Positions 3,104 to 50,219 of a stretch of DNA of 50,367 nucleotides are shown piece after piece. How positions within the stretch are numbered: position 1 is the first letter of the stretch; every line of letters starts with the position of its first letter. Where the stretch lies: the NCBI GenBank assembly GCA_021777225.1, contig JAJYDQ010000025.1:1-50367 (forward strand), in the 5' to 3' direction. Source of the stretch: Deltaproteobacteria bacterium (GTDB lineage Bacteria; Desulfobacterota; Desulfomonilia; Desulfomonilales; Desulfomonilaceae). The position numbers and the translations under genes were made by a program. The notes below the pieces were generated by a model. The model was given only the letters and a program-made list of their open reading frames with translations, had not been told where the DNA came from and ran no database searches.

Positions 3104-3472
3104 TGTTTCGTAGTTCCAGTTTTAATCACTTAAAGATATTCATAAGAGATCAGGACATCAGTTCCTGTCGAGTTCCCATCCCCCTTCAAGTGTGGTCAGG
3201 TCAAACTTAAAAACTTGTCACAATGTCGCTTGCTTTTTATGAACTTCGTCTCGCGCGTCTATAATCAGATTATGCAAGAACTGTCAATCGCGATTCCGAA
3301 TATTATTTAAAAAATCATATTAGCATAAAACCGCCCCGGCAATCTACCAATTGAACGAAAGATATTTCGGCAAAGTTTAACAGTTTGATGCGATTCCTCC
3401 ATATAGGAGATTACGTTCGGCAGGGGATCCCTGAAACAAGACGCCAAGGATATGTTAACGATCGTGTAATGG
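3104..3472. other. Non-coding stretch between the PiT and cydB genes
   Basis: No convincing gene is present here. A 69-codon minus-strand reading frame (3307-3516) overlaps the cydB terminator and has no recognisable motif or ribosome binding site. The part next to 3103 should hold the phosphate transporter promoter. TGTCA-like elements occur near 3213-3222, but not in a pattern I would call a Pho box. Confidence 0.4.
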
Positions 3473-3531: not shown

Positions 3532-4557
3532 TTAGTATGCTTCATCAGAAGCCAGGTCGTCTTTGGTTACTTTGCCTCTGAAAACGTAGTAACTCCAAAT
3601 TTGATACACTATGACTATCGGCACAAAAGTGAGCGCCACTCCAAGCATGATTTTCAGAGTAAGAGGACTCGAAGAGGAATTGTAAATCGTTAGACTATAG
3701 GCAGCATTGAGGCTTGACGGAAAAAGATTCGGATAAAGTCCCACCACGCCGAATAATGTGGCCCCGACAATAGTCAGACTCGACGCGAACCATGCTTTCC
3801 AAAAAGCCATTTGTCCAATAAAAAATCTCGTAGCCAAAAGAGCGAGCACTGTAACCAACGGGATAATCAACAGAATTGGGTTGCTCAGATAGTTCGCATA
3901 AAGGTTGGTAGCAAACCATGTGGCGCCAAGGAACACCACGGCCACAATCAGCAAGATCAGCCATATTCCGGAAGCAGCCTTGGCTGCTCTTTTCTCAAGA
4001 TCTCCTTCAGCCTTGATTGCAAGCCACAACCCTCCATGAACCAAAAACAGAAGCACAAAAAGCACCCCTCCCAGGAGGCCATAAGGGTTTAGCAATGTTA
4101 GTAAATTACCGTGAAATATTCCCTCCTGATCTATGGGTATTCCCTTAAAAATGTTCGCGAAAGCCACACCTAACAACAGGGCAGGGACAAAACTTCCGAC
4201 GAAATGACAAACATCCCACAACTTATGCCAGGCTTCATTATCTTCCTTGCTCCTGAACTCCAGAGCTACCGCTCGAATTATTAAGGCAAAGAGTAACAGC
4301 AGTAACGGAGTATATAGAGCGCTAAACATCACGGCGTAAGTAGTCGGGAACGCTGCGAAAGTTACCCCACCGGCGGTGATTAGCCATACCTCGTTCGCGT
4401 CCCAAAAAGGACCCATTGAATTGTAGATGACCCTCTTTTCGTTATCGTTACGGGCAATGAAAGGGGCCAACGTTCCCAACCCAAGATCATAACCGTCCAG
4501 CATAAAATATACAGCCCAAAGGATGCCCCAAAGCAAAAACCAGATTGTTTCCAACAT
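3532..4557 (-). CDS. cydB: Cytochrome bd quinol oxidase subunit II
   Basis: Subunit II of the membrane bd-type terminal oxidase, which reduces O2 to water with quinol. The protein has 341 residues and about eight transmembrane segments. It starts with the characteristic LWGILWAVYFMLDGYDLGLG, followed by the conserved GPFWDANEVWLITAGG and FRSK motifs. It lies 19 bases downstream of cydA on the same strand, and an intrinsic terminator follows. In an anaerobe this enzyme usually serves oxygen scavenging and tolerance, which fits its PerR-type neighbour. No cydX or cydDC genes are visible in the window. Confidence 0.96.
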   Translation of the reverse strand: MLETIWFLLWGILWAVYFMLDGYDLGLGTLAPFIARNDNEKRVIYNSMGPFWDANEVWLITAGGVTFAAFPTTYAVMFSALYTPLLLLLFALIIRAVALEFRSKEDNEAWHKLWDVCHFVGSFVPALLLGVAFANIFKGIPIDQEGIFHGNLLTLLNPYGLLGGVLFVLLFLVHGGLWLAIKAEGDLEKRAAKAASGIWLILLIVAVVFLGATWFATNLYANYLSNPILLIIPLVTVLALLATRFFIGQMAFWKAWFASSLTIVGATLFGVVGLYPNLFPSSLNAAYSLTIYNSSSSPLTLKIMLGVALTFVPIVIVYQIWSYYVFRGKVTKDDLASDEAY

Positions 4558-20524: not shown

Positions 20525-20633
20525 CCGGCGCTGGTCCCCTGGTGAGGGCGACCTGGAGTTACTGAACCCGTCAGGTCTGGAAGGAAGCAGCGGAAGTAAT
20601 CTCGGGGGTCGGCCCTCTCCAGGTGGTCGGCGC
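20525..20633 (+). ncRNA. ffs: Signal recognition particle RNA, small bacterial (4.5S) type
   Basis: The universally conserved SRP apical domain is present: GTCAGGTCTGGAAGGAAGCA at about 20570-20589, which contains the GGAA tetraloop and the Ffh-binding internal loops. The flanks pair into one long rod; for example GGCGCTGG (20528-20535) pairs with GU wobbles to the 3' end near 20626-20633. A T-rich run follows. SRP RNA binds Ffh and targets membrane proteins. Location directly before dnaX is common in bacteria. Confidence 0.92.
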
Positions 20634-20670: not shown

Positions 20671-22440
20671 ATGTCGGCATACCTCGTATTTGCGCGTAAA
20701 TATCGACCGACTACTTTTTCAGAAGTCGTTGGACAAGAGCATGTAATCACGACTTTGAAAAACTCCGTATTGTCTGGAAGGGTGGCGCATGCTTTTCTAT
20801 TTTGTGGAGTTAGGGGCGTAGGGAAAACCACCGTAGCAAGGATTCTCGCAAAGTCCTTGAACTGTACAGGCAGATCGCATGACAATGCGGACCCCTGCTG
20901 TGACTGCCCATCCTGCAAGGAAATATCGGGAGGATATTCAGTAGACGTTCAGGAAATCGATGGGGCTTCTCATACATCAGTGGATAACATAAGGGAAATT
21001 AACGAAAATATCAAATATCCGCCGGTTTCTTCAAATTACAAAATTATCATCATTGACGAAGTCCACATGATTTCCATGAATGCTTTTAACGCGTTACTCA
21101 AAACCCTTGAAGAACCGCCAGCTCACGCAAAATTCATTTTTGCCACAACCGAATCTCACAAGGTTCCGGCTACAATTAACTCGAGATGTCAGAGGTTCAA
21201 TTTTCGCACTATCCCAGTCAAGGACATTTCCACGGGGATGGCGAACATATTGTCCAAAGAAGGTGTAGAAGCTACACCTGATTCTCTGGATATGATAGCC
21301 AGGGAAGCTCAGGGATCGTTCCGCGACGCATTGAGCTTGCTCGATCAGATTGTAGCTTTTGGAGACGGCAAAATTGAAGCAAGCAGCGTCCAGGGTATTC
21401 TTGGCATCGGCTCACGAGACCGATTTTTTAATCTTGTTGAAGCGATAATAGAGCACGACCCTTCCACCGCTTTACAAACCCTCCACAAGGTCTTCGATGA
21501 AGGTTACGATACTGAACAGTTTACCCTTGATCTGATCCGTTTCTTTAGAAATCTGATATTGATAGCGCATTGTAAAGACTGGTCCTCCGCAATTGAGATG
21601 GTTGATACAGGGACAGCGGAACTGGAATCATTAAAAAACATTGCTAAAAAATCTACCCACGAAGAGTTAAACAATCTTTTTTCCATTCTTCTAAAGAGCG
21701 AGGCTGAAATCAAACGCTCCGGTATTCCAGTGATCGCGCTGGAAATGACAGTGGTCAAGATGTGCCTGGCCCCCAGGCTCGTTGATTTGTCCAGTCTTCT
21801 CAAGAAGATTGACTCCCTCCCGTCTGGCTCCAATACTCTTGCTCCCCCAAGATTAAGCCAAACTGGTCGGATTAAGTTACCAAGCGCTTCGACAGAACCA
21901 TCCCCGAAAAGCCCTCCGATCGTTGAAGAGAAGCCTTCATGCCCATCAACCAGCGGCTCGGGAGTTCCCGGGAAAGCGCAACATGACTTTAAAATCACAG
22001 ATATTACCCCACTGCCAGTCGGGTCCCTTGATGAAGTTTGGGACAACTTCAAGAAAACCATTAAAAAGCGTGGTCTTGATGGCCTCGTGCTTTCGATGTT
22101 GGAGCATGGATCCCTCATTTCTTACGGGCCGAAAGAAGTTGAAATCGGCTTCACTAAGAGCTTTTATAAGGAACAATTTGAAACCTATCTTAGGACAAAG
22201 CCTGAACTGATGACTGTGATAGAGGACCTTTTTGGCCCAGTTCAAACCAGAGTGCTTGTGCTTTCGAAAAGAACTTCCCTTTTGTCCGAAAAACCATACT
22301 CTGAGACACTCGACGGGCAATCAGACATGCACCGGGCGATGCGCAAGGAAGCCATGGAGAATTCAATCGTTCGGGCCATATTAGACGCATTTGAAAACAG
22401 CTCGGTAGAAGAAATTCGCATAATTTCACATAATACCTAA
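20671..22440 (+). CDS. dnaX: DNA polymerase III subunit gamma/tau
   Basis: Clamp-loader ATPase, 589 residues. Walker A is GVRGVGKTT with Lys52; the zinc module is Cys65, Cys76, Cys79 and Cys82; the DExH box is IIIIDEVHM; sensor 1 is FIFATTESHKVPATI. Domain III follows, then a Pro/Ser-rich linker (about 400-440) and a C-terminal tau-type domain of about 130 residues. I see no A-AAA-AAG slippery site, so a programmed frameshift to gamma is not supported. Unlike many genomes, ybaB and recR do not follow; a small Cys-rich gene does. The ATG has only a weak ribosome binding site. Confidence 0.96.
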   Translation: MSAYLVFARKYRPTTFSEVVGQEHVITTLKNSVLSGRVAHAFLFCGVRGVGKTTVARILAKSLNCTGRSHDNADPCCDCPSCKEISGGYSVDVQEIDGASHTSVDNIREINENIKYPPVSSNYKIIIIDEVHMISMNAFNALLKTLEEPPAHAKFIFATTESHKVPATINSRCQRFNFRTIPVKDISTGMANILSKEGVEATPDSLDMIAREAQGSFRDALSLLDQIVAFGDGKIEASSVQGILGIGSRDRFFNLVEAIIEHDPSTALQTLHKVFDEGYDTEQFTLDLIRFFRNLILIAHCKDWSSAIEMVDTGTAELESLKNIAKKSTHEELNNLFSILLKSEAEIKRSGIPVIALEMTVVKMCLAPRLVDLSSLLKKIDSLPSGSNTLAPPRLSQTGRIKLPSASTEPSPKSPPIVEEKPSCPSTSGSGVPGKAQHDFKITDITPLPVGSLDEVWDNFKKTIKKRGLDGLVLSMLEHGSLISYGPKEVEIGFTKSFYKEQFETYLRTKPELMTVIEDLFGPVQTRVLVLSKRTSLLSEKPYSETLDGQSDMHRAMRKEAMENSIVRAILDAFENSSVEEIRIISHNT

Positions 22441-31468: not shown

Positions 31469-31566
31469 TGGCGGAGGCGCATGGGAATCGAACCCACCCA
31501 GAACGTTATTAGCGCCCTGCTTACGGTTTTGAAGACCGCGGAGCCCACCAGAACTCTACCGCCTCC
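31469..31566 (-). tRNA. selC: tRNA-Sec (anticodon TCA)
   Basis: The anticodon stem-loop reads GGTCTTCAAAACC with anticodon TCA, which decodes UGA. The molecule has the long 98-base form, an extended acceptor stem (GGAGGCG paired with CGCCTCC), a long variable arm, a TGGGTTCGATTCCCA T-arm and an encoded GCCA 3' end. These are the hallmarks of bacterial selC. The organism should therefore make selenoproteins, although selA, selB and selD are not in this window. Confidence 0.95.
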
Positions 31567-34637: not shown

Positions 34638-34655
34638 TGACAAGTTGTCAGACAA
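34638..34655. promoter_or_regulatory. Promoter -35 and GntR operator of the lactate operon
   Basis: A consensus TTGACA lies at 34638-34643, and a perfect inverted repeat TTGTCAGACAA at 34645-34655, in the position expected for the promoter core. The -10 is weak (TTGTTT at 34661). The palindrome is of the FadR-type TTGTC-n-GACAA form. It makes the TTG at 34645 an operator base rather than a start codon. Confidence 0.65.
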
Positions 34656-34701
34656 TGTTATTGTTTGTCTATATATCCTTCCCAATAGGAAATCGCGCCT
34701 A

Positions 34702-36087
34702 ATGAACAAAACTTTCACTTCCAGGCTCGAAGAATTACTCGGATCCAGGAAAGTCCTTTCATCAGAATCCGAACTCCTCTGCTATTCCTATGACGCTACG
34801 CCCCTTACTTCCTTCAAACCTGACGCCATCGTGCGCGCTTACAACGAAGAAGACATACAAAAAGTTCTCGAATTCGCCACGCAGGAAAATATCCCCGTAA
34901 CCACCCGTGGCAGTGGAACTGGTCTCAGCGGTGGTTCTGTTCCTGTCAAAGGCGGAATTGTGCTCGTTACTACCGCTATGAACAAAATTGTTGAAATTGA
35001 TTCTGAAGACCTTTCTGTAACTGTCGAGCCGGGGGTAATAACCGCCAATTTGCACTCTGCTGTCGAGGCCCTGGATCTTTTTTATCCTCCTGACCCAGGA
35101 AGCATGAAGATTTCCACTATTGGGGGCAATGTCGCGGAAAACGCCGGAGGTTTACGTGGTCTAAAATATGGAATTACCGGCGATTACGTCATGAGTATTG
35201 ACACTTTTTTGGTCGACGGTTCCAAAGTGAGGTACGGCACTAAGTGCGTAAAGGACGTTGCGGGATATAATATGACAAAGTTCCTTGTGGGAACCGAAGG
35301 AACGATAGGCGTCTTCTCGAAAATCGTCCTGAAACTCGTCCCAAAACCAAAAACCAAAAAGACTTTCCTGGCTCTATACGATGACGTTATCGACGCTGCC
35401 CGAACTGTTTCAACCATAATATCTCGGAAAGTGATCCCTTCTACTCTAGAACTTATGGATCAGTCCACAGTAAATTGCGTTGAGGACTATTCCCAGATTG
35501 GTTTACCCAGAGACGTAGCTGCTTTGTTACTGATAGAAACTGACGGGCACCCTGCGGTTGTCGCCGAAGAAGCCAATGTAATTGAAGAAGCTTGCAAAGC
35601 CAACAATGTCCGGACCTTGAAAATGGCCAGGAGCAAACAGGAATCCGACGAACTTTTCACCGCCAGACGTATGGCTCTTTCGGCGCTAGCCAGGTCAAAA
35701 CCCACCACGATACTTGAAGACATTACTGTTCCTCGTCCCGCGATTCCGGAAATGATGGCGCTCATACGTGAAGTAGCGGGGAAATTCAAGATTTTAATAG
35801 GCACATTCGGGCACGCAGGTGATGGCAATCTTCACCCAACCTGCTTGACCGATGAACGAGACCTGGACGAGATCCATAGGGTCCATGAGGCTTACGAGAT
35901 CATATTTGACAAAGCTATTAGCCTGGGCGGGACTATTTCCGGCGAACATGGCACAGGCATAGCAAAATCAAAATACCTACCGAGAATGGTCGGGCCAAAA
36001 GCTATCGAACTGATGCGCAGAATTAAGGCATGTTTTGATCCTACGGGTCGGTTGAATCCTGGCAAAATTTTCCCCATAGAAAGGTAA
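34702..36087 (+). CDS. glcD: FAD-linked D-lactate/glycolate oxidase subunit
   Basis: A 461-residue flavoprotein that oxidises D-lactate or glycolate to the keto acid. The PCMH-type FAD-binding domain has VTTRGSGTGLSGGSVPVKGG, PPDPGSMKISTIGGNVAENA and GVFSKIVLKL; the C-terminal substrate domain has FGHAGDGNLHPT and the end motif SGEHGTGIAKSKYLP. Length is normal for GlcD/Dld2. It begins the lactate operon and is followed nine bases later by its Fe-S partner. The choice of D-lactate over glycolate is inferred from the lactate permease and LutABC genes. Confidence 0.93.
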   Translation: MNKTFTSRLEELLGSRKVLSSESELLCYSYDATPLTSFKPDAIVRAYNEEDIQKVLEFATQENIPVTTRGSGTGLSGGSVPVKGGIVLVTTAMNKIVEIDSEDLSVTVEPGVITANLHSAVEALDLFYPPDPGSMKISTIGGNVAENAGGLRGLKYGITGDYVMSIDTFLVDGSKVRYGTKCVKDVAGYNMTKFLVGTEGTIGVFSKIVLKLVPKPKTKKTFLALYDDVIDAARTVSTIISRKVIPSTLELMDQSTVNCVEDYSQIGLPRDVAALLLIETDGHPAVVAEEANVIEEACKANNVRTLKMARSKQESDELFTARRMALSALARSKPTTILEDITVPRPAIPEMMALIREVAGKFKILIGTFGHAGDGNLHPTCLTDERDLDEIHRVHEAYEIIFDKAISLGGTISGEHGTGIAKSKYLPRMVGPKAIELMRRIKACFDPTGRLNPGKIFPIER

Positions 36088-36095
36088 ACCGACCA

Positions 36096-37418
36096 ATGCG
36101 GAAACATCTCAATCCGGATGATATTGCTTTGGCCCTATCAACTTTGGATGTTCACGATTACGGAGATGTGTTACAGTGTATGCGGTGCGGACTATGTCTT
36201 CCTACATGCCCAACCTACCGAACTGACGGAGTGGAAACACAGTCCCCTCGTGGACGGGTGGCCCTTATAAAGGCGGTTATAGATGGGAAGATGAAAGCTT
36301 CAGAGGAGTTTGTAGACCATATATATCACTGTCTCGACTGCCGAAATTGCCAGACTGTGTGCCCAGCGGGAGTTAGAGCCGGCGAATTGGTGCTGGAAGC
36401 TCGCTATCGCATTGAAGAAAATCGAACCCAACCTTTAATCAAGAAATTCCTTTTGAATTACGCTATCCTGGATCAGAAAAGACTGGCTAAACTGTTGGCC
36501 CCCCTCAAAATTTATCAAATTTCAGGGCTTCAGGCATTAGTCAGAAAATATGACATTCTAAAGCTGATTTCTGATGATCTCCAATTCATGGAGGCCCTTT
36601 CCCCCAAGTTGCCTGCACATCCTCTATCTGAACAAATTCCCGAAGAAATCCCTGCGTTAGGAGTTGAACGCGGTCGGGTCGGTTTTTTTCTCGGCTGTGC
36701 GATGAATCTTATCTTTGCCGACACTAGTAGGGCTACAATCGATAATTTGAACAGAGCGGGCTTCAGAGTAATTGTTCCGAAAGAAATTCAGTGTTGCGGA
36801 ACACCGAATATTGCGGAAGGTGAACGAAAGATCTACAGGGAAATGGCGGAGAATACCATCAGGATCTTCGCAGACAGGCGGGTCGATTATGTTGTCACTG
36901 ACTGTGCGGCCTGCGGATCGGAACTAAAGACCTATCGTGAAATATTTCGAAAGAACCCTACATTTTCAGGTAAGGCTGAAGAATTTTCGAACAAAGTCAG
37001 AGATGTTTCCGAATTTTTAGACTCAGTTTGGACACCTGATATTAAGCTCGGCCCGGCGCCGGAAATTGCGTGTTTCCATGACCCGTGTCATTTGAGACAC
37101 GGCCAGAAATTGACCTCCCCCCAAAGAAATCTTCTGAACAGAATTCCACAACTGGATTACCGGGAACTGCCGGATGAAGGCCAGTGCTGCGGGTCCGCCG
37201 GAATCTACAATATTACCCACAGAAATCGTTCAATGAAAATTTTGCAATCCAAGATTGAAGCCATAGAGAAAACGAAGGCCCAAACTGTGATAAGTTCTAA
37301 TCCTGGCTGTTTGATGCAACTGTCCTACGGCGCCGCACATTGGAACAAGGCCTGGAATATAGTTCATATATCCGAAGTTCTTAACCGTTCCCTGCGCGCA
37401 GGGGAGAAAACTGGTTAA
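36096..37418 (+). CDS. glcF: GlcF-type Fe-S subunit with two CCG domains
   Basis: A 440-residue electron-transfer partner of GlcD. Two [4Fe-4S] motifs are at CMRCGLCLPTCPTYR (about 29-43) and CLDCRNCQTVCPAG (about 78-92). Two CCG (heterodisulfide-reductase-like) cysteine domains follow: GCAMNLIF with IQCCGTP and CFHDPCHLRHG with GQCCGSAG. It passes electrons from the flavin towards the quinone pool or another carrier. Together with glcD it forms a D-lactate dehydrogenase complex. Confidence 0.94.
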   Translation: MRKHLNPDDIALALSTLDVHDYGDVLQCMRCGLCLPTCPTYRTDGVETQSPRGRVALIKAVIDGKMKASEEFVDHIYHCLDCRNCQTVCPAGVRAGELVLEARYRIEENRTQPLIKKFLLNYAILDQKRLAKLLAPLKIYQISGLQALVRKYDILKLISDDLQFMEALSPKLPAHPLSEQIPEEIPALGVERGRVGFFLGCAMNLIFADTSRATIDNLNRAGFRVIVPKEIQCCGTPNIAEGERKIYREMAENTIRIFADRRVDYVVTDCAACGSELKTYREIFRKNPTFSGKAEEFSNKVRDVSEFLDSVWTPDIKLGPAPEIACFHDPCHLRHGQKLTSPQRNLLNRIPQLDYRELPDEGQCCGSAGIYNITHRNRSMKILQSKIEAIEKTKAQTVISSNPGCLMQLSYGAAHWNKAWNIVHISEVLNRSLRAGEKTG

Positions 37419-37596
37419 ACAACGGATGGTATGCTGTTGGATTGTAAAAGGATCTGACGGTAGAGAATGGTCTAGAGACATTTTAAGTAATTGAATTGGT
37501 TGACTGGAAATTTTTGACATTAGTGGGGGGCAATGGGGGAAAGGGGTTGCCCTTAAGTTCCAATCTAATTCAAAAGATCAAGAGGAGGCTTGGATT

Positions 37597-39237
37597 ATGC
37601 CCTGGCACCAGATTTATGATCCGTTTAACAATGTGACGCTTTCCACTCTTTTCGCAGCATTGCCCATTGTAGTGCTTTTGGGAACTTTGGGCTTCTTACG
37701 AATGAAAGCTCATTGGGCCGCAATCCTGGGCCTGGTTACAGCATTGGTAGTAGCCATCGTGTTTTTCAAGATGCCTGCAGGCTTGGCGCTGGCTTCAGCA
37801 GGTTATGGGGCTGCTTTCGGCCTTCTTCCAATAGGCTGGATAGTCCTGAATGTTATATTCCTGTACCAGCTAACCAAAGACAAAGGTGAGTTTCAGGTAT
37901 TACAAGAGTCATTGACTGGCGTAACAAACGACACCCGTCTTCAGTTGGTCCTGATTGCGTTTGCGTTTGGCGCTTTTTTCGAAGGAGCTGCAGGATTTGG
38001 AACTCCGGTCGCTGTCACAGCAGCGATTCTAATTGGCCTTGGGTTTAGCCCACTCCAGGCTTCCGGATTGTCGCTCATCGCCAACACTGCCCCGGTGGCT
38101 TTTGGCGCCTTAGGTATTCCGGTTATAACACTTGCCGCAGTTTCTGGCCTTGATGTACACGATTTGAGTTCAATGGTCGGGCGACAGTTGCCATTCTTCT
38201 CAGTATTGATACCATTTTGGTTGGTTTGGGCTTTTGCCGGATTCCGAGGCATGGTCCAGGTATGGCCGGCCCTGCTGGTTGCCGGAGTCTTCTTCGCAAT
38301 CCCACAGTTCCTGGTTTCCAACTTTCATGGCCCCTGGCTCGTTGATATTGTAGCGTCTCTCTGCTCTATGGCCGCAGTAACAATATTCTTGCTTAGATGG
38401 CACCCTAAACATATATGGGGACATGACGGGCATGACGAAAACGCCGACTGTCGCGCGTGTCACGGATATTCCACCAATCAGGTGGTCAGAGCTTGGACTC
38501 CTTGGATAATACTTAGTGTGTTGGTATTTATCTGGGGACTGCCTCAGATAAAATCTTTTCTTGATGGCCTGTTGATATTCAAGTATCCCATTTCAAGCCT
38601 GAACAACATGGTTATGCGCGTGCCACCGGTAGTGACGGCGGCCAAGGCTGAGCCCGCTGTATACATGTTCAACATTCTGTCCGCTACAGGTTCAGGTATT
38701 TTCATTGCGGCGGTAATATCCGCAATACTGATGGGGTATTCGATAGCCGAGACCTTCAGAGTCTATTTTCGAACAATTGCGAGAGTGAGATTCTCCCTTT
38801 TGACTATAGCCGCTATGTTAGCGCTAGGGTTCACCACCAGATACTCCGGATTGGACGCGACTTTGGGACTTGCTTTCGCAAAAACGGGTCACCTGTATCC
38901 TTTCTTTGGAACTCTCCTCGGTTGGTTGGGGGTGGCGTTGACAGGTTCGGACACCGCGTCCAACGTTCTATTCGGGAGTTTGCAGAGAATTTCCGCCGAA
39001 CAGCTCGGTATCAGCTCAAATCTAATGGCATCGGCCAATAGCTCCGGTGGTGTTATGGGTAAGATGATTGACGCTCAAAGTATCGTTGTCGCAAGTACTG
39101 CGACCCAATGGTATGGTCATGAAGGTGACATCTTGCGATATGTTTTCTTTCATAGTTTGGCGTTAGCTTCGCTCGTTGGAATTCTGGTTTTTCTGCAAGC
39201 ATATGTGTTCCCGTTTACCCAAATGGTGGTCAAGTGA
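37597..39237 (+). CDS. lctP: L-lactate permease
   Basis: A 546-residue proton-linked lactate transporter of the LctP/GlcA family with about 13 membrane helices. Conserved FFEGAAGFGTPVAVTAA and LTGSDTASNVLFGSLQ motifs are visible. GAGGAGG lies just before the ATG. It sits between the glcDF and lutABC genes, which assigns it to lactate uptake. A His- and Cys-containing cytoplasmic loop (about 268-290, HDGHDENADCRACHG) is not a usual part of the family and could bind metal. Confidence 0.94.
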   Translation: MPWHQIYDPFNNVTLSTLFAALPIVVLLGTLGFLRMKAHWAAILGLVTALVVAIVFFKMPAGLALASAGYGAAFGLLPIGWIVLNVIFLYQLTKDKGEFQVLQESLTGVTNDTRLQLVLIAFAFGAFFEGAAGFGTPVAVTAAILIGLGFSPLQASGLSLIANTAPVAFGALGIPVITLAAVSGLDVHDLSSMVGRQLPFFSVLIPFWLVWAFAGFRGMVQVWPALLVAGVFFAIPQFLVSNFHGPWLVDIVASLCSMAAVTIFLLRWHPKHIWGHDGHDENADCRACHGYSTNQVVRAWTPWIILSVLVFIWGLPQIKSFLDGLLIFKYPISSLNNMVMRVPPVVTAAKAEPAVYMFNILSATGSGIFIAAVISAILMGYSIAETFRVYFRTIARVRFSLLTIAAMLALGFTTRYSGLDATLGLAFAKTGHLYPFFGTLLGWLGVALTGSDTASNVLFGSLQRISAEQLGISSNLMASANSSGGVMGKMIDAQSIVVASTATQWYGHEGDILRYVFFHSLALASLVGILVFLQAYVFPFTQMVVK

Positions 39238-39322
39238 TAAAAACACCAATAATCATCTCTCTGAGTGTTGGTTTATAGAGAGTCGACACAGTTGGGCCGG
39301 TTCCAAAAACTGAGGTAAAAAA

Positions 39323-40048
39323 ATGAGAGTTCAGCTCTTTGCTACTTGTCTTGTTGACACATTCTTTCCTGAAACGGGAGAAGCGGTTGTTAAACTTCTC
39401 AGACATTACGGGGTCGATGTCAGTTACCCTAAAGAGCAAACATGCTGCGGAAAACCCCCTAATAGCGCGGGCTATAGAAAAGAAGCCAGGAAAGCGGCGG
39501 AGCACTTCATTTCAGTTTTTGATGGAACCGACCCGATTGTTATCCCGTCGGGATCATGCGCTTCAATGGTAAAAAACCATTACCCGGATCTCTTTAAGGA
39601 TGCCCCAAAGATGTTTAGGAAAGCTGAAGCGGTAGCTCGGAGAACCTTTGAATTCTCCCAGTTTCTGGTTCATGTTCTAAAAGCTCACGAGTCAGGGTTT
39701 CCAAACGGATGTGGGAAAATAACCTATCACGCTTCATGTCAATTAACACGGGAACTCGGTGTCAGAACTGAACCGATCGACCTGCTGAACTCCATAAAGG
39801 GAGCGCAGTTCGTCCCCATGAAGAATGCGGATCGTTGTTGTGGTTTTGGCGGCGTTTTCATGGGAAAAATGCCGGAAATCTCAATGGCTCTGGCCGATGA
39901 CAAAGTTGACTCCGTTCTGGAAACGAAAGTGGACACAGTTACCGGCTGTGATCATGGGTGTCTGATGAACATCATTGATGCGACAAAACGCAGAGGCGGA
40001 GGTTTCGAAGTTAAACATCTTGCGGTAGTTTTGGCGGAGGCGCTATGA
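39323..40048 (+). CDS. lutA: L-lactate oxidation Fe-S protein LutA (CCG)
   Basis: A 241-residue LutA/YkgE protein, part of the LutABC complex that oxidises L-lactate to pyruvate. Two CCG cysteine motifs are present: EQTCCGKPP and DRCCGFGG, with the upstream partners ATCLVDTFFP and YHASCQLTRE. The ATG is preceded by GAGGT. It overlaps lutB by four bases. LutA and LutB carry the Fe-S clusters of the complex. Confidence 0.94.
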   Translation: MRVQLFATCLVDTFFPETGEAVVKLLRHYGVDVSYPKEQTCCGKPPNSAGYRKEARKAAEHFISVFDGTDPIVIPSGSCASMVKNHYPDLFKDAPKMFRKAEAVARRTFEFSQFLVHVLKAHESGFPNGCGKITYHASCQLTRELGVRTEPIDLLNSIKGAQFVPMKNADRCCGFGGVFMGKMPEISMALADDKVDSVLETKVDTVTGCDHGCLMNIIDATKRRGGGFEVKHLAVVLAEAL

Positions 40049-41409
40049 AGACAGGCGCTGGACAATCAATAAACTTTAGGGATAATGCTCGCCGAGCGAT
40101 TGAGAACCCCACGTTGAGGCGCGCCATGCGCAACGCTACTGAGTCGTTCAGACAGAAGCGGAGCGATGCAATTGTAGGGATGCCGTTTCAACAGTGGCGA
40201 GAACAGGCGTCTGAGTTGAGAAGGACCGTAATCGGTGACATCAACGGCTATGTAGATGAATTCGCGGTGAATGCTACGAAGCGAGGCGCCATAGTTCACA
40301 GGGTTAAAACAGCGGGAGACGCCAGGGATTTAATCGGCGCCATCCTCAAAGATAACGGCGCAAAGAATATCGTAAAATCAAAATCCATGGTGACGGAGGA
40401 GATTCACCTAAACAAACACCTAGAGAGTCTGGGTCTTCGAGTAATAGAGACGGACCTCGGGGAATATATTATCCAGATTGCCGGGGAAACGCCGTCGCAC
40501 ATTATAGTCCCAGCTATTCACAAGAGTCGCGAGCAAATTGGCCGACTATTCTGCGAAAAACTAAGCTGCGATTTTAGTGACGATCCCACTGTCCTCACCA
40601 ATACCGCCAGAGGAATTTTGAGACAGGAATTCCTTACAGCCGACGCCGCAATTTCCGGGGCGAATTGTTACATTGCCGATACCGGTAGTGTCGTCCTTTT
40701 TACCAATGAGGGAAATGGTCGAATGGTCACGACCTTACCGCCTTTGCATATAGTCGTGACGTCTATTGAAAAGGCTCTTCCATCGATCGAAAACCTTCCA
40801 CTGTTGATGCGGCTGTTGCCACGTTCCGCCACTGGTCAGACCCTCACCAGTTACTTGTCCATTATAACTGGCGCCAGGATGCCTGGCGCGGCAACAGGAG
40901 CAAAACAGCTCCACATAGTTTTGCTCGACAATGGAAGGTCTGAAATAGCCAGGGGGCCATATAGAGAGATCCTGAAATGTATCAAATGCGGGGCATGCAT
41001 GAACGTTTGTCCGGTATATGGCATGATTGGAGGCCACGCGTATGACTCCACTTATCCAGGTCCGATGGGTGTAATCCTGAGTACCCTCCTCAATGGAATT
41101 GAGAACGCGCACCCATTGCTCGATGCGACAACTCTCTGTGGCGCGTGCGCAGAAGCTTGCCCGGTTAAAGTCCCATTGTTGAAACTTCTTTACGAATTAC
41201 GCGAAATGAGAGTCGAAAAGGGTTACAATAAAACTGTGGAAAGTCTTGGTATGGCCGGTTTTGGCGTGGCCGCCAAGAATGCGCGTATCTTTCAGGCTGG
41301 CCAGACCTCAGCGAGGGCCTTGTGGTCCCTAGCTGGATTTTTATCACCTTTGACGGTGAACCGTCTTCCCAAACCTACTGATAGAACATTTAGACGGAGG
41401 TTCTCGTGA
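40045..41409 (+). CDS. lutB: L-lactate oxidation protein LutB
   Basis: A 454-residue LutB/YkgF protein. The N-terminal LutC-like (LUD) domain is followed by a ferredoxin-type pair, CIKCGACMNVCPVYG and CGACAEACPVKVP, in the C-terminal third. It is translationally coupled to lutA and lutC (four-base overlaps on both sides). Role: electron transfer and catalysis with LutA and LutC during L-lactate oxidation. Confidence 0.95.
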   Translation: MKTGAGQSINFRDNARRAIENPTLRRAMRNATESFRQKRSDAIVGMPFQQWREQASELRRTVIGDINGYVDEFAVNATKRGAIVHRVKTAGDARDLIGAILKDNGAKNIVKSKSMVTEEIHLNKHLESLGLRVIETDLGEYIIQIAGETPSHIIVPAIHKSREQIGRLFCEKLSCDFSDDPTVLTNTARGILRQEFLTADAAISGANCYIADTGSVVLFTNEGNGRMVTTLPPLHIVVTSIEKALPSIENLPLLMRLLPRSATGQTLTSYLSIITGARMPGAATGAKQLHIVLLDNGRSEIARGPYREILKCIKCGACMNVCPVYGMIGGHAYDSTYPGPMGVILSTLLNGIENAHPLLDATTLCGACAEACPVKVPLLKLLYELREMRVEKGYNKTVESLGMAGFGVAAKNARIFQAGQTSARALWSLAGFLSPLTVNRLPKPTDRTFRRRFS

Positions 41410-41903
41410 AAAACGAAGAAGCGGTAATCATTTTCATGGAAAATTCAGCCAAAGTAGCTGCCAGGCCGATACGCATTAACGGGATTACTCATATGAATGA
41501 AGTGTTAGGCGAGATCCTAGCCAATGAGCCGGCTATATATTGTCCTGGAATTTCGGAGCTTGAGAAATCCATTACTATCGACACAAAGCGTCGCGTCAAC
41601 GCTTATAGGGATGCGACCGTCGCAGTTGAAGAAAGCGTCGCAGGCATAGCCGAAACGGGCAGTGTAGTAGTTACAAGCGCAAATGGCAGAGCAGTTCAGG
41701 CAAGCTTGCTACCGGCCCATCACATAGCAATCTTATCTGCTGATAACATTTTCATGTCTCTTGACGACTTTTTCGCCGATCTAGGAAAAACTCCCCCCAC
41801 CAACCTAACTCTTATAACAGGGCCCAGCCGAACGGCAGACATTGAATTGACATTAACAATAGGTGTGCATGGGCCAGAGAAGGTTTCAATACTCGTTGTA
41901 TAG
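41406..41903 (+). CDS. lutC: L-lactate oxidation protein LutC
   Basis: A 165-residue LUD-domain protein starting with GTG 41406, inside the end of lutB. It keeps the conserved AETGSVVVTSANG, LPAHHIAILSA and GPSRTADIE motifs. It is somewhat shorter than the common 200-240 residue LutC, because the N-terminal helical part is reduced. It is the last gene of the lut operon. Confidence 0.9.
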   Translation: MKNEEAVIIFMENSAKVAARPIRINGITHMNEVLGEILANEPAIYCPGISELEKSITIDTKRRVNAYRDATVAVEESVAGIAETGSVVVTSANGRAVQASLLPAHHIAILSADNIFMSLDDFFADLGKTPPTNLTLITGPSRTADIELTLTIGVHGPEKVSILVV

Positions 41904-45061: not shown

Positions 45062-46393
45062 ATGACGCAATCAGTTCACATACCCTGGGGTAAAGGATCC
45101 ATGAAAATTGGTCTCCCAACAAATTGGAGGGTCTTGGGAGAGCTAAAACCGAGGGGCCTGCCGGGGACAGTGGCTGTACCACCAGTGGAAGCCTGCGTTC
45201 TCGGCCTTATGGAGCCGATAGGAACTGAGAGACTTGCATCTAGGGACCTTTCCGGAAAAAGGACGCTGGTTCTTGTCGACGACCACTCCAGACCAACTCC
45301 AGTCGCGAGTTTCCTGCCCGCTGTCCTCAGCGAATTGTCAGCAGCGGGAGTGACCAAAGAGTTTGTGGAATTCCTTATAGCTACTGGCGTTCATCGGGAG
45401 AGTAGGCCGGATGAAGTTGCTAGTAAGCTGGGCAGTGAGGTAATGGCGAGCTACAAATGGACCTGTCACAACAGCTATGAATCTTCAAGTATTTCAAATG
45501 TTGGGACTACTTCAAGAGGAACGAAAGTATTTCTTAACAGGAAATTGTTGGACGCAGACCTTATTGTGTGTGTTGGAGCGGTAGAACCCCATCTGTTGCT
45601 GGGCTTTGGCGGCGGCTTGAAGATGATCATTCCTGGTTGCGCCGGCGCTGAGACAATCGGGCGAAATCACCTTCAAGGAGTGGATCCCGAGCATTTTAAC
45701 TACGTCGGAACACATGGCGAAGATTCGCCTATGCGACTTGACCTTGAGGAAGGAGCGCTTCTCTTGCGCAAGGAAATATTCATAGTGAACGCTGCTATGA
45801 ATGAACGAGCGAGGCCTATAAAGTTTTTCTGCGGAGACCCAATCATGGCGCAAAGACAAGGAGAGCGTTTTATTGAGGATAGCGTTAGACTAGAAGTCCC
45901 TGAACAAGCTGACGTGGTGATAACCAATTCCTTTCCGATGGACGCTGACCTGCGTCAGTCTGTTAAATGTATCGGAAATACACTGTATGCGGCTAAACCG
46001 GGTGGAATAATGATGGGGTTAGCTCGATCATGGAATGGTTTGGGAGAAATGCCTCTGGCGAAGAAGACGCTCCCCTACCCTGTGATGCGAACACTTCTAA
46101 AGGTAATTGGGAAAAAAAGAGTGCTTCCGTTGGTGAAAAAGGTAAAAGGCGGCGAGCCTGTTGAAGAAGTCTTCATAGGACACTTTGCTCTTCAGATGCT
46201 TAGAAGGAACCACATTTCAATTTTCAGTGACAGCCATCTGCTCCCCGCCGAAATTGGAGCCAGGATGGGTATTGCCCGTAGTTTTACTGACATTCCATCG
46301 ATAGTCAAATGGGCGAAATCTAAAGCTCCCAGTTCAGCGTCTGTTTGGGTATTTCCCTATGGTGGAGCGTGCTATGCCACTTTTGAACCTTAA
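45062..46393 (+). CDS. larA: LarA-family nickel-pincer racemase (lactate racemase-like)
   Basis: A 443-residue LarA-family protein. The residues known in Lactobacillus LarA are present: DDHSRPTP (73-80), His111 in TGVHR, His177 in VEPH, Lys187 in GGGLKM (pincer attachment) and His203 in GRNH, with the same 16-residue Lys-His spacing. Such enzymes use the nickel-pincer nucleotide cofactor and interconvert D- and L-lactate or related 2-hydroxyacids. Genes for cofactor synthesis (larB, larC, larE) are not in the window. Proximity to D- and L-lactate oxidation genes and an operator-like repeat favour lactate as substrate; other LarA homologues act on other hydroxyacids. Confidence 0.88.
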   Translation: MTQSVHIPWGKGSMKIGLPTNWRVLGELKPRGLPGTVAVPPVEACVLGLMEPIGTERLASRDLSGKRTLVLVDDHSRPTPVASFLPAVLSELSAAGVTKEFVEFLIATGVHRESRPDEVASKLGSEVMASYKWTCHNSYESSSISNVGTTSRGTKVFLNRKLLDADLIVCVGAVEPHLLLGFGGGLKMIIPGCAGAETIGRNHLQGVDPEHFNYVGTHGEDSPMRLDLEEGALLLRKEIFIVNAAMNERARPIKFFCGDPIMAQRQGERFIEDSVRLEVPEQADVVITNSFPMDADLRQSVKCIGNTLYAAKPGGIMMGLARSWNGLGEMPLAKKTLPYPVMRTLLKVIGKKRVLPLVKKVKGGEPVEEVFIGHFALQMLRRNHISIFSDSHLLPAEIGARMGIARSFTDIPSIVKWAKSKAPSSASVWVFPYGGACYATFEP

Positions 46394-47182: not shown

Positions 47183-47857
47183 TTGAATTTGAAAAAAGCC
47201 GTTGTCATAATTATCTGGGGAATCGCGTTCGGATTTGTAGAAGCCTCGGTAGTCGAATACCTGAGAGCAATCTATTACCCAGTATCTGCTGGAGGGTTCC
47301 ACTTTCCTGTTAAAACTCTTGCCGAGTTACAGAGTATGGGTCCAGAACACCTCCATCGATTGCAAATAGAGATTGTTAGAGAATTTTTCACTCTGGTCAT
47401 GCTTGCCACTATCGCTATCGCCGTAGCCCGGAACCGACGTCAAGCATGGGCGTATTTCATGATTGCGTTCGGTGTTTGGGACATTTTTTATTACGTTTGG
47501 CTCAAAATATTCCTGGATTGGCCAGCCGGCCTAATGACATGGGACCTTCTTTTCCTTCTTCCCGTTCCTTGGGTCTCTCCCGTTGCGGCCCCAGTAATCA
47601 TATCCCTAGCTCTCACCATTTCAGGCCTGATTGTGCTTGGTTTCGAGGACAAAGACCAGCCTCTCCTGATGACGTGGAGAGACTGGACCTTGATAGCCTT
47701 TGGTGGATTTATAGTGATAGTGTCTTTTTGCTGGGACTACAAAAACATCATGGCAGGAGGATTTCCAAATCCTTTCCAGTGGAAACTTTTTTTCATCGGG
47801 CTGGCGCTGTCAAGCGTAACCTTCGTATTCGCCGTCAGCAAACGCCTTAAACAATAA
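47183..47857 (+). CDS. Six-helix membrane protein, function unknown
   Basis: A 224-residue hydrophobic protein with about six membrane helices and short loops. I do not recognise the family with confidence. Conserved-looking features are FGFVEASVVEYLRAIYYP near the N-terminus (acidic residues within a helix) and FGVWDIFYYVWLKIFLDWP in the middle. It starts with TTG 47183 after GGGGGT. It converges on the radical SAM gene (11-base gap) and does not obviously belong to that system. Confidence 0.7.
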   Translation: MNLKKAVVIIIWGIAFGFVEASVVEYLRAIYYPVSAGGFHFPVKTLAELQSMGPEHLHRLQIEIVREFFTLVMLATIAIAVARNRRQAWAYFMIAFGVWDIFYYVWLKIFLDWPAGLMTWDLLFLLPVPWVSPVAAPVIISLALTISGLIVLGFEDKDQPLLMTWRDWTLIAFGGFIVIVSFCWDYKNIMAGGFPNPFQWKLFFIGLALSSVTFVFAVSKRLKQ

Positions 47858-47868
47858 CATGACACTTC

Positions 47869-49284
47869 TTACAATGAAGTAATCTCTACCGAAGTTGAAA
47901 CATTCTCGTCCCAACCGTCCCACAGGTAATCGTTTTCTTTTCCATCGGCAATAAGCCTCAGGGCATATCGGACCTGCTCTTCGTACAATTCACAGAACGC
48001 CCCGGGATGATTCATCGCCCCATTTATCTCGTATGCCTCCGCTGGACATGGGGATCCGCAGAAATGGCGCACAGCGCAGGACGAGCAAGGTTCAATATTT
48101 TCCACTTTCCTGCCTGTAACCAGTTTGAACGCCTCTGTCTCAAGGATTTCCGCAATGTCGCCACTAAACAGGTTGCCGCCATTAAATTCAGGCACGCCCA
48201 CAAACTCGCTGCACGGGAACAGATCACCCTTGGCGCCCACTGCGAAGAAACACCTACCCCCTCCACATGGAGAAATATCGCACATGAGACGGCGCGCTGA
48301 CGGCGCAACGACACTGACCAGAACATTGGCAAAGTTGGCGATCACAAGTTTTCGACCCGTCTGTTTATACAGCTCATGGGTCCGGTCAAGCGCCGCCCTG
48401 TAATAAGGCCACATGTCGTTATCCATAGGCTTGATCTCACGGGCGCCTTCTCTGGTGCATCTGACAGGATTCAACATACCGATAGGAACTTCCATTTCAT
48501 GCATAAAGTCTACGATTTGAGTAAGACTCGACATGTTTTGCTGAGTGACCGTGCAGATCAGATTGTAATTCGGATAACCCTTGAGTTTTTCTAATACGGA
48601 CGTGACCTTGCCGAAAAACCCTTCGCCATTCCAGTTTTTTCGAGTCGAATTGGCGATTGCGGCTTCGTGCCCATCAAGCGACAAGCCTATCCCAATACCC
48701 TCGGAAGTCAGAAAAGAGATAGATTCTTCGTCAAGGAGCGTTCCGTTTGTTTGGACGCCGAACAGGAAATCATTCCTGAATTTCTTAATACCCGCAAACA
48801 CAGCTTCACGAGCCAGCATAGGCTCTGAGCCGTGAAAAATGATCTGAGGCAATCTATCCTCGGGAAGGGTTTTGTTAAAAAATTCCTTGAGAATGGACAG
48901 AGCTGAAATCAATTGCTCTTCCGACATTTGGACGCCGCCCTGTCTCATTGTCTCGGGGATGTAGCAGTAAGAGCAATTTAAATTGCATCGTTCCGTAGGG
49001 TTAAAATAAACTGCTGAAGGTTTAAGACCAAATCTCAGGTTGTCTATCTCTTTAACAAAATCGTCCCGTTTCTTGTGAAATTCCTGCATAAGACCACTGG
49101 AATCGGCAAGAGCGTCACCTATTTTGTCCTTTTTCAAAAGAGACCAAAACGCAGTGTCCGGATCAATGAGCGCGACATAATCCTTGTGCCCGATGTCTAC
49201 GAACTGCATCGTAGGACCTGCGCCCGTGTTTGAATAACAGCCACGTGAAAAACCGAATTTCTTTGTTTGTTGGTTAAGTTCCAT
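47869..49284 (-). CDS. cbpB: Radical SAM/SPASM peptide-modifying enzyme (CbpB-like)
   Basis: A 471-residue radical SAM enzyme. The SAM-cluster motif is Cys100-x3-Cys104-x2-Cys107 (CNLNCSYC). A classic SPASM domain with auxiliary Fe-S clusters follows: Cys335, Cys340, Cys345-x12-Cys358, then Cys400-x2-Cys403-x5-Cys409-x3-Cys413 and Cys431. Such proteins build crosslinks or other modifications into ribosomal peptides. It follows a 29-codon peptide gene under a cobalamin riboswitch, which fits the CbpB (cobopeptide) maturase family as I remember it. No B12-binding domain is present in the enzyme itself. ATG 49284 has AGGAG eight bases upstream; a frame from 49368 would add 28 residues that run through an RNA hairpin. 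Confidence 0.88.
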   Translation of the reverse strand: MELNQQTKKFGFSRGCYSNTGAGPTMQFVDIGHKDYVALIDPDTAFWSLLKKDKIGDALADSSGLMQEFHKKRDDFVKEIDNLRFGLKPSAVYFNPTERCNLNCSYCYIPETMRQGGVQMSEEQLISALSILKEFFNKTLPEDRLPQIIFHGSEPMLAREAVFAGIKKFRNDFLFGVQTNGTLLDEESISFLTSEGIGIGLSLDGHEAAIANSTRKNWNGEGFFGKVTSVLEKLKGYPNYNLICTVTQQNMSSLTQIVDFMHEMEVPIGMLNPVRCTREGAREIKPMDNDMWPYYRAALDRTHELYKQTGRKLVIANFANVLVSVVAPSARRLMCDISPCGGGRCFFAVGAKGDLFPCSEFVGVPEFNGGNLFSGDIAEILETEAFKLVTGRKVENIEPCSSCAVRHFCGSPCPAEAYEINGAMNHPGAFCELYEEQVRYALRLIADGKENDYLWDGWDENVSTSVEITSL

Positions 49285-49332
49285 CACTATATCTCCTGGT
49301 GCATATCTGGGTGTGGTCAAGTCTGGATGAGC

Positions 49333-49358
49333 GGGGCGCGTCCCGCAAGGAGCGCCCC
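49333..49358 (-). promoter_or_regulatory. Hairpin between the peptide gene and the radical SAM gene
   Basis: GGGGCGC (49333-49339) and GCGCCCC (49352-49358) form a perfect seven-pair stem in the transcript. No U-run follows, so it is not a terminator. It may protect the upstream peptide mRNA or set the ratio of peptide to enzyme. Confidence 0.7.
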
Positions 49359-49375
49359 ACTGGTTCATTGTCGCA

Positions 49376-49465
49376 TCATTTAGGTTTCGCGACGATCATG
49401 ATGTAATGAGACAGTCCTGTCCCGTCAGCCGAGCAGTTCTTGCGATAGGCGATAACGTCCTTCAT
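49376..49465 (-). CDS. cbpA: Short RiPP precursor peptide (CbpA-like)
   Basis: A 29-residue peptide starting MKDVIAYRKNC and ending AKPK, with a single Cys at position 11, two Gly at 15 and 17, His20 and Tyr21. AAAGGAGG (49477-49484) precedes the ATG at 11-base spacing and is one of the strongest ribosome binding sites in the window. The gene lies between a cobalamin riboswitch plus terminator and a radical SAM/SPASM gene, so it is the probable substrate of that enzyme. The absence of a leader with a cleavage motif or signal peptide is notable: the whole peptide is scarcely longer than a typical core. It resembles the CbpA family as I recall it; the mature product is not known. Confidence 0.85.
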   Translation of the reverse strand: MKDVIAYRKNCSADGTGLSHYIMIVAKPK

Positions 49466-49529
49466 TTCAAAGATCACCTCCTTTCAATGGTTATGCTGGC
49501 CGTCTTTGCGGCCAAGAGCTATAGACCAA

Positions 49530-49563
49530 ATAAAAAAGCCCTGACGCCTTTAAGGCGCAGGGC
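49530..49563 (-). terminator. Riboswitch-linked intrinsic terminator
   Basis: GCCCTG and CGCCTT pair with AAGGCG and CAGGGC, one base bulged, and a U-run follows. It lies 22 bases after the riboswitch and before the peptide gene, so it is the expression platform that ends transcription when cobalamin binds. Confidence 0.9.
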
Positions 49564-49585
49564 TGCTTTTTCCATCAGTTTACCC

Positions 49586-49737
49586 TAGCTCAGCAACTCG
49601 TCTTCTGGCTCCCGGGTCATCCTCCTCCCATCCTTCCCACCAGGTTTAAACCTGACAGTGGATATACGGGACTCGTAACCGGTTACAGCGGCGGGACCGC
49701 CACGGGTTTTCACCGTGTTCCGTTAGCTTCTGAGCTA
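49586..49737 (-). promoter_or_regulatory. Cobalamin (B12) riboswitch
   Basis: Read on the minus strand, the conserved cobalamin elements appear in order: ACGGAACACGGTGAAAACCC, a GGCGGTCCCGCCGCTGTAA core (B12-box area), GTTACGAGTCCCG, ACTG, GGGAAGGATGGGAGGAGGAT and GGGAGCCAGAAGAC. The first and last eight bases, TAGCTCAG and CTGAGCTA, form a perfect P1 stem that defines the ends. An intrinsic terminator follows 22 bases later. It should repress the downstream peptide/radical SAM operon when B12 is plentiful. Confidence 0.93.
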
Positions 49738-49859
49738 TATACAAACATATCTAGCAACAAAATACGATGAAGTGTCAAGCAAAATTTGCTCCCCTAAACT
49801 GGAGGATTCGGCCTATTGCGCTTGAAAAAGATCTTGAGCCAATATATTATCGCCACAAT

Positions 49860-50219
49860 ATGGAAATCGACGTTTCCTCATATATTTTGCGATTCCAACT
49901 GAGGAAAAGCGCGCGTGAATCCGCCTTAAAGCGCCATTACGCCAAAGCGCTCGAAGTTGCCGCAAAAGCGGCGGAATTATTGCGGACAGGTTTTGACGCT
50001 AAAAGGGTTGTCGCATTTGGATCGGTCACACACGAAAACCTGTTCCACTTCGGTTCTGATGTGGATCTGGCCGTGTGGGAGTTGGGCCCCGGGGCGTACT
50101 TCCTGGCTGTCGGCCAATTGCAGTCGATTGACCCGTCAATTTCAATTGACCTTGTAATGTTCCAAGACGCCCCCGAATCATTGCAGCGTCTTATACTCCA
50201 GGAGGGAATTGACCTGTGA
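49860..50219 (+). CDS. MNT-type minimal nucleotidyltransferase (antitoxin)
   Basis: A protein of about 119 residues (from ATG 49860) with a minimal nucleotidyltransferase core: VVAFGSVTHENLFHFGSDVD, where GS and DVDLAVW carry the catalytic Asp pair, and SIDLVMF the third Asp. Such proteins pair with HEPN RNases as toxin-antitoxin modules. The next gene overlaps by four bases (GTGA) and looks like the HEPN partner. A longer frame from 49767 is possible but reads into the riboswitch promoter side and is less likely. Confidence 0.82.
   Translation: MEIDVSSYILRFQLRKSARESALKRHYAKALEVAAKAAELLRTGFDAKRVVAFGSVTHENLFHFGSDVDLAVWELGPGAYFLAVGQLQSIDPSISIDLVMFQDAPESLQRLILQEGIDL

Follow-up and report, generated by a model that had tools for sequence, protein, structure and literature searches.

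The minus strand of the analysed 50,367-nt stretch of DNA (the window) carries, in 5'→3' direction, a cobalamin (B12) riboswitch, an intrinsic terminator, a ribosome-binding site and the genes cbpA and cbpB, coding for a short precursor peptide and a radical SAM/SPASM peptide maturase. The linkage of cbpAB to B12 is well supported by the conservation of the riboswitch, by synteny and by co-occurrence with B12 genes. The interpretation favoured here, narrowly probable in our estimation, is that of a B12-repressed operon yielding a modified, cofactor-like CbpA product which serves corrinoid synthesis or salvage during late assembly. Microbial communities are shaped by B12 assembly and scavenging, a pathway generally taken as known; should the interpretation hold true, a missing component would be found in this peptide-derived factor, which has the regulation of a B12 gene and is encoded in B12 operons of bacteria and archaea.

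The riboswitch aptamer (49578..49762, minus strand) matches the whole RF00174 model of Rfam (model positions 1-189; 83.2 bits versus a gathering score of 31.5; E 4.1e-19) and scores 121 bits with our own covariance model (R1), which was built from 19 riboswitches of cbpAB loci and used alongside Rfam. Both arms of the P1 stem are present (TAGCTCAG, 49737-49730; CTGAGCTA, 49593-49586). The expression platform, an intrinsic terminator at about 49528..49567 (minus strand), consists of the GC-rich hairpin AGCCCTGCGCCTTAAAGGCGTCAGGGCT followed by the T-run TTTTTTATTT (fold -21.3 kcal/mol), and the 101 nt around it yield a folding z of -2.9. The ribosome-binding site of cbpA, AAAGGAGG (49477..49484, minus strand), was assigned from the sequence. 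This aptamer-terminator-gene order is the layout of a ligand-off switch, and together with the established behaviour of the riboswitch class it suggests repression of cbpAB by B12. A further GC-rich hairpin between cbpA and cbpB (49319..49363, minus strand; centroid fold -25.4 kcal/mol, z only -1.2) may raise the level of the peptide over that of the enzyme. The pair is flanked by the gene of a membrane protein (ORF 47183-47857, plus strand) and by that of an MntA-like nucleotidyltransferase (49767-50219, plus strand), and no transporter or protease gene adjoins it in the window. The nucleotidyltransferase may be the antitoxin of a type VII pair; the ORF that follows it, starting at 50216, extends beyond the window.

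The gene cbpA (49376..49465, minus strand; ATG at 49465, stop at 49376) encodes the 29-aa precursor peptide MKDVIAYRKNCSADGTGLSHYIMIVAKPK with the core R-K-N-C-SADGT-G-L-S-H-Y, which reaches 46.9 bits with the NCBIfam model TIGR04164 (cut-off 35). The 471-aa product of cbpB (47869..49284, minus strand) matches TIGR04163 with 712.4 bits over positions 2-428 of 428 (cut-off 375). With both cut-offs exceeded in the HMM search, the window harbours an ordinary member of the CbpA/CbpB family, as had been suggested in the original prediction; the full riboswitch with its P1 stem, the terminator, the 29-codon peptide gene, the complete SPASM cysteine set of the enzyme and the lack of a transporter or protease gene close by were likewise recovered as predicted. 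RefSeq annotation already uses the CbpA/CbpB names, e.g., for the Methylovirgula plasmid pHY1.

CbpB possesses the radical SAM cysteines C100/C104/C107 (CX3CX2C) and a SPASM set of the seven-cysteine pattern (C340-x12-G-x4-C358, C400-x2-C403-x5-C409-x3-C413, C431), all of which are invariant among 22 aligned CbpB proteins from the GTDB phylum group of the window (the window's own included, to which the other 21 are 52-75 % identical). The best solved fold match of its AlphaFold model (mean pLDDT 83) is the SCIFF maturase CteB (5WGG/5WHY; Z about 32, residues 24-449), which is also the nearest solved structure by sequence and shares the radical SAM and SPASM fold, although identity amounts to only about 22 %. 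Residues 24-85 align with the N-termini of CteB and TigE and have no Pfam RRE/PqqD match; an N-terminal RRE-like region covering about these residues is likely but not certain. Since the fold of CbpB resembles that of thioether-forming CteB, a radical crosslink on CbpA is likely, and a thioether of the cysteine is the best guess. The next-best NCBIfam profile is that of PapB, a ranthipeptide maturase (NF047865) which likewise combines radical SAM and SPASM domains; CbpB stays far below its cut-off (144.8 versus 340 bits), and CbpA does not conserve the spaced Cys/Asp pairs seen in PapA. Assignment as a PapB-type ranthipeptide is thus supported neither by the enzyme's score nor by the peptide, in which regularly spaced cysteines with Asp/Glu acceptors are not conserved. 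CbpA contains a single conserved cysteine, and the Asp following it varies across loci, so that a family-wide Cys-x-x-Asp thioether as in PapA was rejected.

For the family survey, 102 non-redundant CbpB loci (98 % identity) were gathered starting from CbpB only; they comprise 94 bacterial loci (Desulfobacterota, Pseudomonadota, Verrucomicrobiota, Planctomycetota, Omnitrophota, Nitrospirota, Elusimicrobiota, Actinomycetes, Chloroflexi and others, as judged from record titles or identical records) and 8 archaeal ones. A short ORF with the pattern R-x-x-C-(5-7 residues)-G-L-[SAT]-H-[YF] was found just upstream of cbpB in 90 out of 93 loci examined. Two of the three exceptions end at a contig border, so cbpA precedes cbpB in 90 out of 91 untruncated loci. 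The third exception, a CbpB of Thermodesulfobacteriaceae (L078:10001-11326), has no CbpA, riboswitch or B12 gene within 21 kb and is either an orphan enzyme or paired with a very different peptide. The family core R-x-x-C-(5-7 residues)-G-L-S-H-Y is near-invariant, and near-identical across bacteria of many phyla and archaea. As the search pattern itself required R, C, G, H and Y/F, the invariance of these positions is partly by construction; informative are the near-universal placement of the ORF, the leucine, which is invariant even though I and M were allowed, and the frequencies of S (83/90 peptides) and Y (87/90). The archaeal peptides read MAYRLKCPRTANGGLSHYMF and score 22-23 bits with TIGR04164, i.e. 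below the cut-off of 35, so that the CbpA model apparently leaves them unnamed and they extend the family. No conserved protease able to release the core was detected at cbpAB loci.

A cobalamin riboswitch is located directly upstream of cbpAB in 78 of the 94 bacterial loci. Twelve of the remaining 16 lie inside B12 gene clusters (L012/L134, L013/L135, L038, L040, L042, L043, L045, L046, L050, L080, L084 and L091), indicating that pairs standing alone carry a switch of their own, whereas those within a B12 operon often lack one. One of the other four is truncated (L089), and the untruncated L052, L064 and L078 have neither a riboswitch nor a nearby B12 gene. The same RNA model was run on 384 kb from 29 loci taken as those of other radical SAM enzymes, among them one divergent archaeal cbpAB locus (L096), and yielded no cobalamin riboswitch, so the pairing of riboswitch and cbpAB is not due to chance. 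None was found at archaeal cbpAB either. At seven archaeal loci, a gene for a protein with RHH and AIR-synthase-like domains is oriented divergently from cbpA (e.g., L126:10553-11491, plus strand; L128:4780-5790, L132:3849-4775 and L096:9459-9761, minus strand) and possibly codes for a regulator in place of the riboswitch. Locus L044 harbours a divergent pair of cobalamin riboswitches separated by 130 nt (3296-3418, minus strand; 3548-3681, plus strand), one facing cobC-cobU-cobT-cobS and the other cbpAB. On plasmid pHY1 of Methylovirgula sp. HY1 (L158:11950-13529), 1.8 kb separate cbpAB and pqqA-pqqD-pqqE; the 24 kb read contain no cobalamin riboswitch, and no B12 gene is nearby.

Core B12 genes were present within 10 kb of CbpB at 19 out of 58 loci from named genomes versus 1 out of 21 control loci (Fisher p about 0.017). 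Most cbpAB loci are stand-alone transcription units, and most of these, the window's included, have no B12 gene nearby. In salvage operons of Omnitrophota, Nitrospirota and one Syntrophaceae genome, cbpAB is found among varying subsets of cobT, cobS, cbiB, cobD, AsnB-like, Dph6-like, btuF, btuC, cobA and btuB. The order cbiA-cbiC-cbpAB occurs in Verrucomicrobia and in two genomes of the window's phylum, with cbiM next in three of four cases; cbiM neighbours cbpAB in L042, L134, L135 and L132. Five of the eight archaeal loci display cbpA-cbpB-cobT with cobT following after 28-55 nt, and one has cbpAB together with cbiMQ-cbiT-cbiL. In two proteobacteria, bluB lies 21-27 nt downstream of cbpB. 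Because of this variety of neighbours (cobT, bluB, cbiC, cbiM, AsnB-like), no single B12 step is singled out; the lower-ligand stage is ranked first by a slight preference, CobT and BluB being lower-ligand genes. An extra copy of a ThiC-like gene, representing a Bza-type lower-ligand synthase, was dismissed as a constant companion, since carriers and non-carriers alike mostly possess one copy, and the ThiC-family gene in the B12 cluster of L135 scores as ThiC and falls below the BzaB cut-off. The salvage operons of L038, L040, L046 and L091 contain genes for a protein with an AsnB-like ATP-dependent amidotransferase domain and for a Dph6-like ATP pyrophosphatase beside cbpAB, and those of L038 and L046 an additional small radical SAM protein. 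At the actinomycete loci L055 (7354-8625, plus strand), L058 and L060, a gene for an anaerobic sulfatase maturase is located about 0.8 kb downstream of cbpB, its identity having been established for L055.

Co-occurrence with B12 genes was determined for 36 CbpB-positive and 44 chosen CbpB-negative genomes of Desulfobacterota (same families or class). CobS was present in 35/36 carriers versus 23/44 negatives (p about 3e-6) and CbiD in 35/36 versus 15/44 (p about 1e-9), with ancestry ignored in both cases; the genome of the window contains both. In the Dechloromonas family (9 positive versus 82 negative genomes), and again with ancestry ignored, the respective counts were 9/9 versus 58/82 for CobS (p 0.11), 6/9 versus 21/82 for CbiC (p 0.02) and 8/9 versus 32/82 for BluB (p 0.009). 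At least six carriers with pairs in salvage clusters (the genomes of L038, L040, L046, L050, L091 and L096) are devoid of CbiD. These six and the above counts show that late corrinoid assembly is nearly always kept by carriers, be they makers or scavengers, and the 15 CbpB-negative genomes with CbiD show that cbpAB is accessory rather than essential to B12 synthesis. The CbiD-free carriers weaken a role restricted to cobalt insertion or corrin-ring synthesis. Likewise, the joint presence of BluB and CbpB in the Dechloromonas family weakens the idea of the peptide as a BluB substitute and disfavours the peptide itself as source of the lower ligand. The original prediction had considered corrinoid or cobalt acquisition or use: riboswitch conservation, synteny and co-occurrence lend this option strong support, whereas cobalt acquisition alone is unlikely given the carriers without CbiD.

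Under scarce cobalamin, the leader would remain unterminated and CbpA and CbpB would be produced. CbpB would then modify CbpA within the C-(5-7 residues)-G-L-S-H-Y core via a SAM-derived radical, most likely by linking the single conserved cysteine through a thioether. The resulting product is envisaged as a small, conserved, cofactor-like molecule acting inside the cell in corrinoid synthesis and salvage. Its point of action would probably be late assembly, i.e. a step common to makers and scavengers, with lower-ligand activation or attachment (CobT/BluB) as leading candidate. An intracellular contribution to corrinoid supply appears most plausible because the modified peptide would be repressed by B12, is strongly conserved, apparently not exported and linked to corrinoid genes.

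The main rival, to which we assign a small yet appreciable probability, regards the modified peptide as a corrinoid- or cobalt-binding molecule (a 'corrinophore') that is secreted or periplasmic and helps to capture scarce corrinoid in the manner of methanobactin for copper. It would agree with the presumed repression by B12, with the single operon of cbpAB, btuF, btuC and a BtuB-like TonB receptor in some lineages, with the cbiM neighbours at four loci and with possible metal binding by the invariant Cys, His and Tyr. However, no conserved exporter, signal peptide or protease accompanies the pair, import genes are absent from many loci, the archaeal pairs occur with cobT rather than import genes, and the carriers without CbiD argue against a service to cobalt insertion only.

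Riboswitch targets are known to include B12-repressed isozymes, and most cbpAB loci are stand-alone units; both would suit a product that replaces or bypasses a B12-dependent reaction at low B12, as MetE does for MetH. This role, also contemplated in the original prediction, is unlikely and found no support, because cbpAB is located inside cob/cbi/btu clusters in many lineages, not beside B12-independent isozymes, and because carriers nearly always make B12 or perform its late-stage assembly. It is quite unlikely, too, that the peptide acts within the cell as a regulator or sensor of corrinoid status instead of helping an enzyme: the short peptide, its invariant core, feedback control and the divergent RHH/AIRS-domain regulator adjoining archaeal cbpAB would fit, but bacterial loci already have the riboswitch, and no regulator partner is kept across lineages. 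A bacteriocin or competition factor entering via B12 receptors and made at low B12 is very improbable, since the core is near-invariant over many phyla and archaea, unlike peptides shaped by an arms race, and the pair lacks a transporter or immunity gene, even though radical SAM/SPASM enzymes are described as makers of sactipeptide and related bacteriocins (PMC5682303).

The preferred reading of an intracellular, cofactor-like product has precedents in mycofactocin and PQQ. The cofactor nature of mycofactocin was argued from a conserved peptide and the absence of a transporter or immunity gene (PMC3023750), and cbpAB resembles both systems in its short peptide, invariant over distant phyla and archaea, its one radical SAM enzyme and the lack of such genes. 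Differences reside in the control by B12, the linkage to corrinoid genes and the internal position of the conserved core of CbpA, which does not comprise the last residues; moreover, a dependent enzyme set was not identified for cbpAB, only B12 genes having been profiled. CbpA as precursor of a further peptide-derived cofactor beside PQQ and mycofactocin, B12-repressed and devoted to cobamide assembly in bacteria and archaea (perhaps to lower-ligand activation or attachment near CobT/BluB), is put forward tentatively, as a possible rather than a probable extension. Compared to the known B12 riboswitch regulon (cob, cbi, btu, bluB), cbpAB belongs to the same riboswitch class and, in many lineages, to the same clusters, but codes for a predicted modified peptide instead of a pathway enzyme or a transporter of a known step. 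The database authors' name 'cobopep' suggests that they were aware of a cobalamin link. A literature search, outside of which most subscription papers remained, retrieved no work naming TIGR04163 or TIGR04164, none joining 'cobalamin riboswitch', 'RiPP' and 'precursor peptide', and none on the archaeal cbpAB-cobT loci, the quantified pattern of riboswitch or B12 cluster, the bluB adjacency or the co-occurrence with B12 synthesis, which are possibly new. The CbpA/CbpB family was named in silico with no function described, and the conserved core, the CobT, BluB and CbiC neighbours and the list of carriers render the question directly testable.

Elsewhere in the window, a selenocysteine tRNA was detected (31473-31566, minus strand; RF01852, 68 bits); the organism probably produces selenoproteins. 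A bacterial small SRP RNA (20535-20629, plus strand; RF00169, 48.5 bits) is located 42 nt upstream of a DnaX-like ORF (20671-22440, plus strand). Downstream of apparent lactate oxidation and permease genes (about 34645-41903), a homologue of the LarA-like nickel-pincer hydroxyacid racemases is encoded (45062-46393, plus strand), which scores below every NCBIfam subfamily cut-off.
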